A stretch of 64,000 nucleotides of DNA from an uncultured Bacteroidales bacterium. GTDB lineage: Bacteria; Bacteroidota; Bacteroidia; Bacteroidales; F082. The DNA is taken from positions 108,305 to 172,304 of the forward strand of contig CAMHJX010000003.1 of assembly GCA_946185535.1 (NCBI GenBank), read 5' to 3'. Below, piece by piece: positions 29,194 to 37,340 of this stretch. The translations under genes were made by a program, and so were the position numbers. Every line of letters starts with the position of its first letter. The stretch's first letter is position 1. The notes beneath the pieces are model-generated. The model searched no databases. It was not told the DNA's origin and was given only the letters and a program-made list of their open reading frames with translations.

Positions 29194-29835
29194 TTACACT
29201 TCTTTGTACTTTTTCCATTTGTCGGGGATAACTAGTTTATAACCACTCCTTTTAAGGATTATCTCGTCAGGAAGAACGCTTTGCTTGAAGCGGGTTTCAT
29301 ACCACTGCATACGGATGACATTGATACCTGGTATCTTGGCAATTGCTTCGGAATGATGACTTGGCGGGAAGAACACATATACCCGAGCCCCAGCACTTTT
29401 GGCTAACTCTATCGCAGGTATCATGTCGCTATCGGCTGACACGACAATTGCAATGTCACAATCACCATTCTTCGCATCGTTTACAATCTGTGTGGCAATA
29501 CGCACATCGCTTTCTTTCTCCTCGTATGTGTTGATATTGAAGCCACATCGTTTGCATACGATTTTCTTCTTCAAGTACTTGCCCATTATCAGGTGGAACT
29601 TTGGATTTTCCTTGTTGGCATCGAAAAACATGCTCTGTCGATGAGCTTTGTCCTCATTATTGATAGGTCTGGCAGAGAAATACTTCACAGCCATAAGCTC
29701 CTGGTTTTTCAGCATAAATTTCTCGAACAATTTCACCAAGTCGAGCCAATAATACCTTTTCCATGAAGAGTTTTTCTTCAATCCGTAGTAGAAATTGAAG
29801 CCGTCTACATATACAATAACCTTCTGTTTATTCAT
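29194..29835 (-). CDS. NYN domain-containing protein (LabA/PIN-like nuclease)
   Basis: A 213-aa protein with a PIN-like NYN fold. Start ATG 29835 (MNKQKVIVYVDGFNFYYGLKK) begins directly with the first catalytic Asp strand. The others are seen in EKESDVRIATQIVNDAKNGD and DIAIVVSADSDMIPAIELAKSAGARV. KRCGFNINTYEEKES has a Cys pair typical of the LabA-like subgroup. Predicted metal-dependent RNase. Its leader contains an intrinsic-terminator-like hairpin directly before the start, and the gene lies between 60-bp direct repeats at the edge of the AT-rich island. Confidence 0.88.
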   Translation of the reverse strand: MNKQKVIVYVDGFNFYYGLKKNSSWKRYYWLDLVKLFEKFMLKNQELMAVKYFSARPINNEDKAHRQSMFFDANKENPKFHLIMGKYLKKKIVCKRCGFNINTYEEKESDVRIATQIVNDAKNGDCDIAIVVSADSDMIPAIELAKSAGARVYVFFPPSHHSEAIAKIPGINVIRMQWYETRFKQSVLPDEIILKRSGYKLVIPDKWKKYKEV

Positions 29836-29842
29836 ATCGTTC

Positions 29843-29897
29843 AAAAAAATAGCCAACTTTTTGGGTTGGCTGGGCCTCGGCAATATCTCATCCGAGG
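29843..29897 (-). promoter_or_regulatory. Attenuator-like leader of the NYN gene
   Basis: On the minus strand a hairpin CCTCGG...CCGAGG (29892-29897 / 29875-29880) is followed by AGCCAAC-7 nt-GTTGGCT (29865-29871 / 29851-29857) and ATTTTTTT (29843-29850), that is, an intrinsic terminator ending 7 nt before the start codon at 29835. A -7 element TATTTTTG lies upstream on the minus strand at 29910-29917, so the hairpins are in the transcribed leader. Confidence 0.65.
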
Positions 29898-30109: not shown

Positions 30110-31602
30110 TTAAAACTCAATTTCCACATTCCTATCGTTCACAATATCATCAATCGCCTTGTTTAGTAATCTTTTAAGATGTTTGGCGGTTTTGTCTAAT
30201 TCGTAGATGCCAGCAGTGGAATTGAATTCATTGTCTTTTTCCATGAAATTTTCAAGCGTGAAACTAACCGTTGCGTATTCTTGTGGATTATGATACAATG
30301 TGGCAATTTCTCTTTGTTTAGTTTCGGGAAAGTTGGGAATCATTATCCTATCAAAATACGAAGGCGATAAATGGCCACCTGAACCTCCAACAGTCATACA
30401 ATCTGTCAACCCACTTTCCTTATAATATTGAAGAATACTTCTAATCGTAATAACCCTATGCAAGTCATTGTCTAATACAGATCTTAGGATATGAGCATGG
30501 GCATTATTAATTGTATTTTGGTCATCATCAAGAAAAACCATTGTTCTGCCTGTTCCACTTTCACCAAATAGAATATCGCCAAATTGAACAGTTGCTATTT
30601 TTGCAGGTGTTCCGATATACTCATCATTCCTTACAATTCCGTAATTTGTTATTTGTTTAGGGGTGATAAGCCGATAAAAACCTTTTATATAATGGTCGCT
30701 GTCTATGCGTGTACCCAATAGTTTTAATTCCAGACTCGGGCCGGGTATTAATTTCAAATGCTGATGTGTCAATGGAGAATACCCATTCTTATAATTCAAA
30801 ACACTATACAATCCCTTCTTGAAAAATACTTTGTATAAAGAAGCGTCCAATCTTCCAACCTCTTTCACCTCGTTCAGCTTAGGCAACTGATAACCGAATT
30901 GATTAGGCTTTTGATTTTCATTCAATTCTTTTTCAATTTGTTGCAAAATTTCAGCATGGCGTTGACGGATGAGTTTTTCTTTGTTGACAATAGCCCGTGT
31001 GAGAATAGAAATGTAAATGATGGTTCTTTCAGGATTAGTATTTGGCAGTGGTATTTTACAATCCAAAAACATAGTTTTTGCATGGCGTATTGTAGCTCCT
31101 TTTGGAACCATAAAATCTAATTGTTCACGAAATATGTCAGCCTTGATAAATGCCAATAGATAAAACGCCATTCATCCGCCACTGGAAGTTTGTAAATTGC
31201 ACCTGAAAGCATACAATTCAGATAGTTTTTGTCAAGGATTACAATTTCACCAATGTTGCTGTCTTTTGAAATTAGCAAGTCGCCCTCTTTCAAATTCATT
31301 GATACGAATTCAGACGGCAAAATAGGCAACGCGGTTTCTTTGTTTAAATCCAGCAAAAACGAATATGGTTGCAATGCTTTTGTCCGTATAAAATGGAATG
31401 ATGATTTGTCGATATAACTAAGTGAGCCAACTTCTACTCCCAAATCCTTCCGCTCTAGAGGCCTGAGCAAAAAATCTCTCACCAACATAAATTTCTTGTT
31501 AGGCATGACAAGCCTTACATATTGTGAAGATGACAAAGTAAAGTCTTTATCTACAACATCTTGCCATTTTACCGAACTTGGTGTGTGAATATAGTTGCCC
31601 AT
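30110..31602 (-). pseudogene. Specificity (S) subunit of a restriction-modification system, frameshifted
   Basis: Two overlapping frames, 31117-31602 (161 aa, MGNYIHTPSSVKWQDVVDKD) and 30110-31171 (353 aa), together make one S subunit of about 500 residues. The first half has the usual target-recognition features (FMLVRDFLLRPLERKDLGVEVGSLSYIDKSSF; EGDLLISKDSNIGEIVI). The second resumes as AFYLLAFIKADIFREQLDFM followed by VPKGATIRHA, a classic HsdS segment, in another frame. Correct reading needs a shift near 31150-31171, where no long homopolymer is present. It is 1 bp from the methylase gene. Either a real inactivating frameshift, a sequencing error, or two separate half-subunits. Confidence 0.75.
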
Positions 31603-33730: not shown

Positions 33731-34165
33731 TTTGCCTTGCGTTTTGTGCGCTTACTTATCTGTTTTCGGTTTGGCGGACAATCTTTTGGAGCAAAAAGAA
33801 CGTGGACTTGAACATTATCCACGTCTTAGGCCCTGAGATTGCCCGCTTCACCAGATAAGTCAAGCCCACGCCAAAGCGCAGGCATTTACTTGACTTATTC
33901 GAGGTGAAGCATATTAAGTTTCTCAGGTTTAAGACGCTACCGAATAAATAGCAAACGCTATGATTTATAATATGTTATTGCAGTTTTTCTTTTTTATAAT
34001 TTATCTGTTTGTTTAATGATTCTGATGTCTCGATATAATTTTAATTGTTGTTTATGGGTGCAAAGATAATGGATTACTTTGTGAATGGCAAAAAGTTTTT
34101 GATACAATAATTACAGTCGGCGTTATGAGAAAACTAATACGCATGTTTATCCTCAAAATAACTCT
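33731..34165. other. 435-bp intergenic region containing a structured RNA candidate
   Basis: No open frame is visible. The right part (33946-34165) is AT-rich with no clear feature. The left part holds the rod-like RNA candidate annotated separately (33791-33945). Confidence 0.6.
33791..33945 (-). ncRNA. Rod-shaped structured RNA candidate (6S-like fold)
   Basis: Nested perfect complementary segments form a long rod: 33823-33828/33930-33935, 33832-33838/33921-33927, 33845-33852/33903-33910, 33855-33864/33889-33898 and an apical stem 33870-33872/33881-33883, 34 bp in total with asymmetric internal loops. On the minus strand the rod is followed by a hairpin (33818-33824/33800-33806) and TTCTTTTTG, an intrinsic terminator, giving an RNA of about 150 nt. 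Size and shape resemble 6S RNA, but no primary-sequence match can be claimed. An alternative is a regulatory element of the island. Confidence 0.55.
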
Positions 34166-36238
34166 TTATAAGCCAAAAAATTCGTTACAATTAAATAAAA
34201 ACAGTTTTTCCTGAAGTAGTACCAAATAATACCAATCTTCCGTAAGTAGTGCACGAGATAAGTTGTCCATCAGCAGAGTCATGTTATGTTTGAACAACAG
34301 CGAAGCCTCTGTTTCATTGGGCATCTTTGCACATTCCAACACCTTTGGACTTGAAAGACGTTCACAATAGTCATCCATCCATTTCAATAAAGCATCATAC
34401 CTTAATATCGCATCTTCTAAAGGATTATCACAAAAGCGATGGATTTTCCCCGCTTCTAATACCTTGTGCATATCATAACTAGAACTCCATCCAGCGTGGT
34501 TCTTATAATCTCTAATATACTCATAAAGGTAATTGGATACAATGAACCTGCGTGAAGGATTATAATCTCCATTTAATGTCTTTTCAAACAAAACAATCAA
34601 TGATGATAAATCCAGAACAAAGAGTGTCTGGGGCGTTACAAACCTAAATCTTTTAGGATCTTTTAGATTCTTGGGCCAAGGGCACAACTTGAAGTCCGTA
34701 AAAAGAAACCTATAGTAACTCCATAACAGGTCGTCTGCCCTACAATTCAATAGAAATGATGGCTTAGCGTTGTAATTGTTCTGAAGTTGAACATCTACAT
34801 TAACTGTTGTGTCAACCCCTGCCGCCTCAAAGATAGTTTGTAAAACTTCCTTAGCTGTCATTTGAGAGTTTATTTTGATAGGTCGCATTATACAGTTACC
34901 TCCTTGTTCCATTACATCTGTCAATGCCCGATGCACTATGCTATAGTATTTATCATATACGGCTATAATTCTAACTTTTCTGTCTTCGCCAACTATGTTT
35001 AGAATAAACTCTTCATCTTTATTCTTGCCAAGCATTGTTCGAGCCATCAAAGTCTTATTGCTGGCAATTAAACAATGTCTATGCTCTTGTCCATCATCAT
35101 ACAATACGCACTTACCCTCTGTTACAGTGTCATACTCTTTATAAACTATAGAATTCATCGGAGATTCTAATAATTCAATATAAAAAAGGGTATCTAATTC
35201 ATTGTCATTGAATCTAAGTGCATTGTTATACCAAATATCAACTGCTGTTTGAGGGAATCCGCTGTTCGCAAATGCTCTTGCCGAAAAGACTACACTTTGT
35301 GGGGTGGAGTATTGAAATGAAAGGCCTATCTTTTGTAATCCGACGAGTTCTTGCGGGGATGTAAGCGATGTAGTATTGATGTAATTCAAAACAGTCCATT
35401 CATCTTGAGGATGACGCTCCCATAGTTGCTTAATAGGTTTATACGCATCAGCATATTGGGCCAATTCCATGAACGAAAGAAATTGCGCAACCAACTCCTG
35501 GTCACTTACTTCTGCAAATGTGGCTTTTGTTTCCTCGTTAATTGTGTTCAATATATCTTCGTCCGTAGGTTTGTCTTGTCTCGTTTGAGTTGGATGATAA
35601 ACATCTGGGAAATACTTTGCCATGGTTTTAATAGGTACTAGTTTCATCGTGTTGAAATCCCCGCCCTGCACAGACTTATTGATAATACCCAAACAATGAT
35701 ATTGACCATTTACCATGTGAAATAAGCCCATACCCGAACAACCTTTTTCTGCGGTGATTGCCTTGGTGGAGCCGCCACTTATCACATCTTTCAACCGCCA
35801 ATTGTATCCGCGTTCATTGGTTGGAAAAAAATCAAGATAAAGGCCGTCCTCAATATGATTAGGAAACCCGTATGAACCAAATGCTTCATCTAATTTATAG
35901 TCTGAAGAGAGGACTAAACTATGCTCATAATCGAACCTCACCTGGGGTTTTTCTATCTCCAAAATTGCCCAGTCTGCATCAACGTCTGCGTCCACAAGCC
36001 TTTTAAACTCAAGTGCCACTTCAGCATCTTTCAAATATATGGTAGCTGAGATCTTTTTCCAGTCTGGTGATAGGATTTCATTACCTTCATCATCAGTCTC
36101 CTTCATACAATGTAAAGCCGTAATAAGGTAATATTTCCTCTGACTAGCGATGATGGTACCAGTCCCTTGTATTGAATGATTTAGGAGGGACGTTTGATAT
36201 AATGTCTTTGCTGAGAAAAATTCTAAGTTATCTATCAT
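34166..36238 (-). CDS. Trypsin-like protease / helical / GreAB-C-like / PIN multidomain protein
   Basis: A 690-aa protein with four parts. Residues 1-210: trypsin-like protease with a visible triad, H43 (ITALHC), D89 (DADWAIL) and S168 (KGCSGMG). About 225-370: helical, TPR-like. About 375-440: segment resembling the GreA/GreB C-terminal domain (MLGKNKDEEFILNIVGEDRK, VRIIAVYDKYYSIVHRAL). About 535-690: PIN-like nuclease with D543 (FVLDLSS), E573 (NYLYEYI) and D668 (LLTEDWYY). Similar helical-GreAB-C-PIN chains have been described as conflict-system proteins; fusion to a protease is notable. Its start overlaps the stop of the lactamase gene (ATGA), so the two are translationally coupled. Predicted: proteolytic activation of an RNase effector. 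Domains 3 and 4 are inferred from motifs. Confidence 0.72.
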   Translation of the reverse strand: MIDNLEFFSAKTLYQTSLLNHSIQGTGTIIASQRKYYLITALHCMKETDDEGNEILSPDWKKISATIYLKDAEVALEFKRLVDADVDADWAILEIEKPQVRFDYEHSLVLSSDYKLDEAFGSYGFPNHIEDGLYLDFFPTNERGYNWRLKDVISGGSTKAITAEKGCSGMGLFHMVNGQYHCLGIINKSVQGGDFNTMKLVPIKTMAKYFPDVYHPTQTRQDKPTDEDILNTINEETKATFAEVSDQELVAQFLSFMELAQYADAYKPIKQLWERHPQDEWTVLNYINTTSLTSPQELVGLQKIGLSFQYSTPQSVVFSARAFANSGFPQTAVDIWYNNALRFNDNELDTLFYIELLESPMNSIVYKEYDTVTEGKCVLYDDGQEHRHCLIASNKTLMARTMLGKNKDEEFILNIVGEDRKVRIIAVYDKYYSIVHRALTDVMEQGGNCIMRPIKINSQMTAKEVLQTIFEAAGVDTTVNVDVQLQNNYNAKPSFLLNCRADDLLWSYYRFLFTDFKLCPWPKNLKDPKRFRFVTPQTLFVLDLSSLIVLFEKTLNGDYNPSRRFIVSNYLYEYIRDYKNHAGWSSSYDMHKVLEAGKIHRFCDNPLEDAILRYDALLKWMDDYCERLSSPKVLECAKMPNETEASLLFKHNMTLLMDNLSRALLTEDWYYLVLLQEKLFLFNCNEFFGL

Positions 36239-37281
36239 ACTATAATATATTTTACTCCTTCCGATATTGTGAATTTATCTTTTTCTGTTTCCTTCAGTAA
36301 TCCAACATTCCGTTTCATAATGGTTTTAAGCGGATAGTTGAAATAGAGAGCAATTGGAGTTTCATTTCTCCTTGCCCACGCATCAATACAAGCAATCGTT
36401 TGCCTATCTGGATGGTATGCCCCTCCTGTACCACCATTTGTTGAAATTAGGAAATTGGAGCAATAAATTAATTCAAATAACCGACGATTGATGTTTGCTT
36501 TACTTCCATGATGAGATACTTTTATTAAATCAACAGACAATGGGGTTTCAGTTGTTGCACCAAGTCTTTCTAAGGAATCCGCTATGATATTTGCCTCTGC
36601 ATCGCCTAAAAACAGAAGCGTTTTGCCTTCCGCCATAATACGCAATGCAATAGACGTTTTATTCATAAAAGATGTTCTCCTTTGGCGAAATTCTGTGGCA
36701 AGTTGCGTAAGCTCTTTGGCAGCATCTCGTTGCACGTTTCCAAACGAGACTTCTTCATCCGTGTCAGGATCATCTTCCAAACCTTCTTTTTCTTGATACT
36801 CTCGATAATGCTTGAGTAACTCTCTTTGTATTTCCTTTGTTGGTGATAAAATCTCTATTTGGAAAGGTCCAATTATCATCGGCTCCTTTTCTGTAATCAC
36901 ATTGTTACTCCACTCTCCAATCGCACCTTGTTTTTTTAGTTTTTCAAGATGTTTTGATAGAACATAAGCATCCTCATAAGCAGCCACATTCTCTTCGTTA
37001 TCAAAATCTACAATATTTGCGCAATTTGCCCAAACATAATCGACTAAGCAAAGTTCACCTTTTAGCTTTTCAAAAAACCTCAACAGTCCTGTTATATGGT
37101 CTGCATCGAAATGAGTCAAGACTAACAAATCAATATGCCCTAGACTTAAATAGCACTCTGAAATGGCATTAGCAGTTTCTTCTGGTCCTCCATCAATAAC
37201 TATCCTAAAGACCTTTCCTGCTTGTTCTGCCTCAACTATAAAGGCATCGCCATGCGCAGCCTGTAAAGAGATTATCCTCAT
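36235..37281 (-). CDS. ComEC/Rec2-like metallo-beta-lactamase-fold hydrolase
   Basis: A 348-aa cytosolic MBL-fold protein. Metal-binding signature LTHFDADHITG (HxDADH) is at residues about 56-66, with IDGGPEET before it, LFLGDAEAN in the middle and VSHHGSKANINRRLF later. This is the soluble DUF/COG2333-type lactamase related to the ComEC C-terminal domain, but without membrane segments. It may cleave a nucleic acid or nucleotide signal. It overlaps the downstream protease/PIN gene by 4 bp and is driven by a good promoter (37310-37340), so the two form a compact two-gene operon. Role as sensor, regulator or effector is open. Confidence 0.82.
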   Translation of the reverse strand: MRIISLQAAHGDAFIVEAEQAGKVFRIVIDGGPEETANAISECYLSLGHIDLLVLTHFDADHITGLLRFFEKLKGELCLVDYVWANCANIVDFDNEENVAAYEDAYVLSKHLEKLKKQGAIGEWSNNVITEKEPMIIGPFQIEILSPTKEIQRELLKHYREYQEKEGLEDDPDTDEEVSFGNVQRDAAKELTQLATEFRQRRTSFMNKTSIALRIMAEGKTLLFLGDAEANIIADSLERLGATTETPLSVDLIKVSHHGSKANINRRLFELIYCSNFLISTNGGTGGAYHPDRQTIACIDAWARRNETPIALYFNYPLKTIMKRNVGLLKETEKDKFTISEGVKYIIV

Positions 37282-37309
37282 AATCCAGCATTTCGTTTTT
37301 TCTTTTGTG

Positions 37310-37340
37310 CAAAATTACAAATCTTTCCCTATTTGGCAAA
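37310..37340 (-). promoter_or_regulatory. Promoter of the lactamase / protease-PIN operon
   Basis: On the minus strand TTTG (37337-37340), a 19-bp spacer and TAATTTTG (37310-37317) match the Bacteroidota consensus closely. The start codon is 29 bp further at 37281. Confidence 0.7.

Follow-up and report, generated by a model that had tools for sequence, protein, structure and literature searches.

We describe here a pair of overlapping genes on the reverse strand of a 64,000-nucleotide stretch of DNA from an uncultured Bacteroidales bacterium (contig CAMHJX010000003.1; hereafter the window). The upstream gene encodes a protein of the metallo-β-lactamase (MBL) fold and the downstream gene a protein of 690 amino acids in which a trypsin-like protease domain is followed by a TPR-like stretch, a GreAB-C domain and a PIN domain. 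Our analysis makes it probable that the two form a zymogen-type abortive-infection system, in which a sensor-linked trypsin activates a gated MBL pro-DNase. The MBL protein would be made as an inactive DNase with its active site covered by two insertions, and its partner would be an infection sensor, made up of the TPR-like, GreAB-C and PIN parts, with trypsin as its N-terminal domain. When this sensor detects infection it would oligomerise or change shape; the trypsin domain would then cleave the MBL protein in its gate loops, and the DNase thus released would destroy phage and host DNA. The MBL protein is most likely the executioner because its family matches are to the Lamassu, DRT and Avs1 MBL proteins and because gating of such pro-DNases has been described by Tuck et al.; activation most likely falls to the trypsin domain, and sensing to the partner's C-terminal half.

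This proposal draws on the main text of Tuck et al. 2025 (PMC12799240), according to which the pro-DNases of Hachiman and AVAST are opened by a partner trypsin, the same pairing also being found in Lamassu and DRT systems. DNase activity in vitro was shown for HamM, and gating and cleavage for both HamM and Avs1a. HamM, whose pro-DNase is gated by two insertions, is cut in both of them after an isoleucine; in Avs1a two such isoleucines matter, and one cut was seen on infection. For the window pair we obtained the gene order, the homology, the catalytic residues, the two extra stretches of the MBL protein and the recurrence of the two-gene arrangement in another lineage of MBL genes. That its gating, cleavage and DNase behaviour would be the same as in HamM and Avs1a is what we infer from these likenesses.

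Among PADLOC models the MBL protein matched LmuA (MBL model) with an E-value of 3.5e-75, RTasMBL with 1.1e-49 and Avs1a with 8.9e-33, and its match to the NCBIfam Avs1a model (E 1.4e-45, 155.7 bits) lies under the cut-off of 420. The metal-site residues are present as THFDADH (H57, D59, D61 and H62) together with D227, H257 and H258, and all of these columns are invariant across 51 aligned MBL rows. Judged from sequence length, the protein carries two insertions relative to ComEC-type MBL proteins: gate 2 spans about 50 profile positions against about 5 residues in ComEC 9vc6, while the two conserved blocks are about 130 profile positions apart against about 60 residues in the ComEC-type 9ic4. 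Y102 in gate 1 and L191 in gate 2 align with isoleucines of a relative, L018, at columns where other hydrophobic residues are common; these columns were anchored on L018 and not on HamM or Avs1a/EpiAvs1a, so they need not be the true cut sites. In the nine trypsin-TPR-GreAB-C-PIN relatives, read by eye, the gate 1 position is isoleucine in 5/9 and valine in 2/9, and the gate 2 position is isoleucine in 4/9, valine in 4/9 and leucine in 1/9.

The protease triad of the partner occupies columns that are invariant in all nine trypsin-TPR-GreAB-C-PIN proteins, the window protein included, and an N-terminal fragment reached 0.0011 with Pfam Trypsin_2, under the cut-off. PADLOC LmuA models match both window proteins (34166-37281), though no LmuB or LmuC was seen adjacent to them, and automatic annotation may label such pairs as Lamassu. 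The C-terminal half is, by homology, a divergent and shortened TPR-GreAB-C-PIN module. Pfam returned weak matches to it, all under cut-off (RA 0.012, GreA_GreB 0.12), and no PIN; PF20698 itself, which matches 12 of the 13 members of our set, did not match the window protein. However, phmmer with the C-terminal half against 612 proteins matched three PF20698-type proteins (best E 1.4e-7), and a profile of 10 PF20698 members matches residues 271-675 with an E-value of 8e-18 and 60.6 bits; in the shuffling control the score was 60.1 bits, and 200 shuffles gave a maximum of 2.6 bits. A profile of 8 full-length trypsin-type proteins matches residues 24-206 and 398-669 (E 4.9e-21). The middle domain is called GreAB-C because Kaur et al. 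2021 (PMC8195603) define the family in that way; a fragment of the window protein reached 0.0067 with Pfam GreA_GreB, under cut-off, and this weak hit was seen solely in the window protein among 13 family members. A PDB sequence search with the C-terminal profile returned mainly designed TPR proteins and, marginally, trigger factor (E 0.018). Domain-wise alignments were used because MAFFT, whether given full-length sequences or fragments, misaligned the window protein, which lacks the TPR bulk.

The references for these comparisons were drawn from genome scans with PF20698, which matched 5/247 and 9/385 genomes at 14 places; 12 of these places, those in G739 and G813 not being included, yielded 10 full-length proteins, with L047 (short frame only) and L063 (no family-profile match) left out. 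The TPR-like sequence ahead of GreAB-C amounts to about 80 residues in the window protein, with a weak E-value of 0.005. In its PIN region the acids D543, E573 and E667/D668 are kept, and the motif-III acid is replaced by H651. The D543 column holds D in 17 of 19 proteins, the two without it being among the 10 non-trypsin references; the E573 column is acidic in 9/9 trypsin-type proteins, and the motif-III position is D or E in 8/8 other trypsin-type proteins and in 8/10 other references. The window copy therefore lacks a complete set of PIN acids, a set whose completeness varies within the family, and its PIN site looks damaged. Because it has few TPRs and this damaged site, its C-terminal half more likely serves for sensing than for cutting RNA; in the relatives, which have the full set of PIN acids, PIN may well cut.

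The pair recurs in other genomes. The GTDB scan with the MBL alignment was taken up for the best 80 of 398 relatives, and among these 80 one partner, a protein of 1359 amino acids at locus L115 of Dyadobacter sp. 3J3 that was found via its MBL, is trypsin-TPR-GreAB-C-PIN. When compared with 72,556 plasmid records the L115 protein matched one plasmid, Runella slithyformis pRUNSL03 (L156), on which an overlapping MBL gene again lies upstream of the protease gene. PF20698 is above its cut-off in both proteins, and Pfam Trypsin_2 is above cut-off in the Runella protein and under it in that of L115. When 200 genomes of the family to which the Dyadobacter genome belongs were searched with the protein only, 12 had matches: full-length trypsin-TPR-GreAB-C-PIN genes stand at 8 places in 7 genomes, L115 included, another genome contains just fragments, and in the other 4 the match is confined to the trypsin part. 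Every full-length gene other than L115 (7/7) has an overlapping MBL gene directly upstream, as does the fragmented copy L181; the frames of these relatives start at the first start codon, so that the extents of the overlaps are approximate, and L177 is the Runella copy (L156) found again. The trypsin-only places have an adjacent MBL gene in 4/4 cases, downstream in 2/4. In contrast, the TPR-GreAB-C-PIN loci with other N-termini contained an MBL or a trypsin in 0/10, two of these loci (L043 and L058) having little upstream DNA.

The MBL tree was built on 97 rows from 109 loci; of the 12 that were dropped, some were weak, others were of unsuitable length, and L065, L110 and L133 were duplicates. 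Smaller tests used 36 of the 97 rows, or 42 rows made up of 31 of the 97 and 11 new ones. In the 97-row tree the window falls in a 22-row clade (100/96), apart from L115 and L156. In 17 loci of this clade there is an ATPase gene that resembles the ones at L076, L077 or L105; the partner genes of L077 are LmuA, LmuB and LmuC by PADLOC, and the other 16 loci were assigned by similarity only. With 42 rows, the nine Dyadobacter-family-type MBL genes group together (98/97) and the window lies in another clade (99/99); a single clade of all 10 is rejected (approximately unbiased test, p-AU 0.0013), as is one of the window with three Dyadobacter-type MBL genes on 36 rows (p-AU 0.0087). Because the window MBL sits in a separate MBL clade, the pairing probably arose twice, unless the MBL gene was exchanged. 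Such an exchange, affecting no more than the MBL gene, is possible, and Tuck et al. 2025 (PMC12799240, main text) describe the nuclease as exchangeable between two Avs systems. The C-terminal tree points the same way, the window protein grouping with non-trypsin proteins (90/91), but a single clade is not rejected (p 0.07). The trypsin tree covers 73 loci, those in which the following gene satisfied a filter on length and motifs. Unlike the MBL tree, it puts the window on a long branch next to STAND-type partners (86/91), although individually the top hits of the window trypsin belong to the L077 type.

A number of observations weigh against a protease-gated DNase in the window. That the insertions cover the MBL active site is itself a prediction from sequence, and the cleavage-site isoleucines are not kept at the columns set by L018, which hold Y102 and L191. 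In 2/9 of the trypsin-TPR-GreAB-C-PIN relatives a ligand-motif residue of the MBL protein is changed; in a 15-row MBL alignment D59 is changed in L178 and H257 in L176. The stretch between trypsin and GreAB-C is about 190 residues long in the window protein and about 690 in its relatives, and the protein stops about 20 residues past PIN where the relatives extend about 150; because of this shortened middle and missing end, the window gene could be a decayed or retuned copy. The 7/7 adjacent MBL genes all come from a single family group and a single MBL clade, and so do not count as independent events, and two of the control loci, L043 and L058, have just 325 and 160 bases of upstream DNA. The 690-amino-acid protein was found in its own genome only, both among 393 genomes of the order and among 173 of the family; no match was found in plasmids, or in viral or GTDB contigs with a pattern method that reaches close relatives only, and the L115 protein had no match in phages or viral contigs. 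The window trypsin does not group with the trypsins of the loci of its MBL clade, those of the L077 type, and the flanking proteins chosen at L175 and L176 (2/10) had no PADLOC match.

An earlier note on this DNA had recognised the pair and proposed that the protease releases or controls the PIN RNase of its own chain, with the lactamase as maker, remover or sensor of a nucleic-acid signal. The two enzymes do share one chain, the MBL protein has a weak Pfam match to the anti-Pycsar protein Apyc1 (E 0.016, under cut-off), Kaur et al. propose (PMC8195603) that PIN cuts transcripts bound to RNA polymerase, and the complete PIN acids of the 8/8 other trypsin-type proteins make a cutting PIN possible there. 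This reading is nevertheless improbable, since the MBL protein resembles the gated DNase families much more closely and carries additional sequence at each of the two gates, and since the motif-III acid is H651 in the window copy. In the loci that we examined, moreover, MBL accompanies the trypsin-type variant and not the others, which fits a protease substrate. A signal-handling lactamase is not supported by the best matches, which are to Lamassu, DRT and Avs1 MBL models, the group with protease-gated DNases in Hachiman and AVAST, and we rejected a signal-nucleotide lactamase; a protease-released RNase is less likely with an obvious substrate encoded next door and a PIN acid missing. The remark that a protease and a nuclease on one chain are unusual loses force, as Kaur et al. 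list trypsin among 13 effectors of this family (PMC8195603). We also rejected a toxin-antitoxin pair, on anatomy only, both products being enzymes.

The long branches of the window copy, with its missing TPR bulk and post-PIN part and its lost PIN acid, could instead mean that a Lamassu-type MBL gene has come to lie beside a truncated trypsin-GreAB-C-PIN gene as a decaying or mispaired, non-working remnant. We regard this as unlikely: both frames are fully open, the triad and the MBL ligands are intact, the ATGA overlap and a promoter match are in place, and the family profile finds no post-PIN remnant in the window outside the gene. A plain Lamassu system using an LmuB/LmuC partner encoded elsewhere in the genome would explain why the top PADLOC matches of both proteins are LmuA, and the near MBL relative L077 does adjoin LmuB and LmuC. 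However, the listed PADLOC matches of the remaining five genes between 30 and 39.7 kb (for the methylase gene, 25 of 41 matches) include no LmuB or LmuC. Hits to LmuB in the window's own genome are weak (6e-5 and 2e-4) and on other contigs, in a search that was positive in 13/14 control genomes. With a C-terminal half that is GreAB-C-PIN as well, such an arrangement is very improbable. The sensor-linked trypsin and its pro-DNase remain our preferred interpretation.

The layout of the locus is collected in the table below. The earlier note had placed the pair correctly in coordinates, strand and ATGA overlap, and the protease triad, the HxDADH metal site and the GreAB-C/PIN C-terminus that it named are all borne out. 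Its PIN acids D543, E573 and D668 are kept as well, and it did not list the motif-III position, where the acid is lost. Its shared promoter has a counterpart in a match to the Bacteroidota promoter consensus, TTTG-N17-23-TAnnTTTG, that sits 28 bases ahead of the MBL start. The pattern has 9 matches in the window where 2.13 would be expected by chance, and because a further match, at 34061-34092 (-), precedes the methylase gene, the MBL/protease pair looks like its own operon. The AT-rich setting holds too, with a GC content of 0.37-0.42 across 30-38 kb and 0.43-0.51 in the rest of the window. Of the neighbourhood that had been described, between a restriction module and a Fic gene, the upstream Fic-domain gene and the downstream N6-methylase with two specificity-like frames are there, but no restriction subunit was seen beside them. 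Overall, the observation of the earlier note is confirmed and its interpretation partly supported, the part that stands being that the two genes make up a self-contained module in which a single chain unites protease, GreAB-C and PIN.

Table. Positions of the features of the two-gene locus in the window.
Feature	Position	Strand	Remarks and basis
MBL-fold protein gene, 348 amino acids	36235..37281	-	predicted gated pro-DNase (HamM/Avs1a/Lamassu-MBL type), from sequence
Trypsin / TPR-like / GreAB-C / PIN gene, 690 amino acids	34166..36238	-	open frame, PADLOC, family profile
ATGA overlap of MBL stop and protease start	36235..36238	-	sequence
Predicted Bacteroidota-type promoter of the two-gene operon	37310..37340	-	TTTG, 19 bases, TAATTTTG; pattern match
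Gate-1 region of MBL	36928..37032	-	about residues 84-118, extent approximate; alignment
Gate-2 region of MBL	36661..36840	-	residues 148-207; alignment
Trypsin-like protease domain	35594..36238	-	residues 1-215, triad H43, D89, S168; PADLOC LmuA 1.4e-18
Short TPR-like helical stretch	35183..35428	-	residues 271-352; sub-profile of 10 relatives, E 0.005 (weak)
GreAB-C region	34862..35209	-	residues 344-459; sub-profile of 10 relatives, E 8.8e-6
PIN region	34223..34624	-	residues 539-672; sub-profile E 5e-4, residue columns

At 30110-31602 (-) the specificity-like part is split into two overlapping frames of 353 and 161 amino acids, and because of this split and because no type I restriction subunit was seen, the restriction module next to the pair may be broken or incomplete. 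A frame of 229 amino acids at 29194-29883 (-), which contains VIVYVDGFNFYYGL and which looks like an NYN/PIN-like protein, adjoins the module. The homologue pairs that the earlier note suggested looking for were adjacent in every full-length case (L115 and 7/7 others), and neighbourhoods of the kind that it had expected were also found at three of the loci checked. The flanks of L174 hold a CBASS cyclase, a 4TM effector and BovA (Borvo), those of L179 a type I methylase, a specificity protein and TIR, and those of L180 a CBASS cyclase and a phospholipase. At five loci 8/10 hand-picked flanking proteins match defence models, although this choice favours defence genes and is not an enrichment test.

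Several arrangements seen at related loci are recorded here in their own right. Genome G956 carries two different trypsin-TPR-GreAB-C-PIN and MBL pairs, L176 and L180. Three annotated MBL-fold genes lie within 5.3 kb on the Runella plasmid (L156:2724-8002), the last of which alone adjoins the protease gene, with a multiubiquitin/ThiF cluster on the opposite side. At L184:7104-12981 and L185:2204-8082, trypsin proteins of 1444-1594 amino acids have the MBL gene downstream rather than upstream. At L104:9032-13507 and L131:9026-13381, an MBL gene is followed by a protein of 1451-1491 amino acids that passes the serine-protease motif filter; the L104 protein, scanned with ends about 14 codons off, has a weak Pfam NACHT match (E 0.0038, under cut-off), and this partner is possibly another sensor type. 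L018:1309-5372 and L022:390-4944 combine an MBL gene with proteins of 478-483 and 869-1057 amino acids, the smaller of which has trypsin and weak ATPase matches in L018, and a further host system for the MBL-trypsin pair is possible there.

The weakest step of the proposed mechanism is the trigger. Kaur et al. 2021 (PMC8195603) propose that RNA polymerase is the docking site of GreA/B-C, that the transcript is cut by PIN and that the N-terminal effector acts if this cutting fails. In the window protein GreAB-C may likewise dock on RNA polymerase, and PIN may be a nucleic-acid binder or a nuclease. We suggest only tentatively that docking of GreAB-C-PIN on a phage-stalled or hijacked RNA polymerase sets off the trypsin and pro-DNase cascade, instead of or besides transcript cutting. 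The MBL gene would supply the missing substrate of the trypsin-type TPR-GreAB-C-PIN system, a variant that has hitherto been a prediction without a target and that would gain a concrete substrate and a killing mechanism. It would also add to the sensors known to work with the protease-gated DNase; if true, this would be a fifth trypsin-linked sensor type, recruited at least twice. GreAB-C-PIN sensing becomes directly testable, because the protease and nuclease action has already been shown in Hachiman and AVAST.

The pair joins two defence designs that are described separately in the literature that we consulted in open-licence form. In that literature, supplements aside, we found no report of MBL paired with trypsin-TPR-GreAB-C-PIN, and the words PIN and GreA are not in the main text of Tuck et al. 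2025 (PMC12799240); they mention further loci in fig. S2C, and because their supplement holds these, an earlier listing of the pair is possible. With the gated MBL and trypsin pairs (HamM with protease-HamA in Hachiman, Avs1a with Avs1b in AVAST, and those of Lamassu and DRT) the window pair shares the MBL gene immediately upstream, the N-terminal trypsin on the defence protein (PMC12799240, main text), an intact MBL metal site and two extra stretches relative to ComEC. It differs from them in a partner fused to TPR-GreAB-C-PIN and in an MBL protein without isoleucine at the columns set by L018. AVAST type 1 differs further in its STAND NTPase gene, for which Pfam gave no match among the seven genes of 30-39.7 kb. 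The nearest MBL relatives belong to Lamassu loci with MBL and a protease-type LmuA (L077, and L076 as the nearest, to which the identity is 38-40%), from which the window pair differs in that no LmuB (the SMC-type ATPase) or LmuC was seen beside it. The Canu (caspase-nuclease) loci described in the main text of Tuck et al. likewise have a pro-nuclease freed by a partner protease; there, however, the protease is a caspase and not a trypsin, the gene order is another one and no GreAB-C-PIN is described. With the TPR-GreA/B-C-PIN (PF20698) conflict system, for which Kaur et al. 2021 (PMC8195603) give 13 N-terminal effectors including trypsin, the window protein shares the constant GreAB-C-PIN C-terminus behind a swappable N-terminal effector, albeit without most of the TPRs and without the post-PIN part. 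The genes of Kaur et al. are mostly standalone, whereas the window gene and its 8 full-length relatives stand in an operon with an MBL gene.

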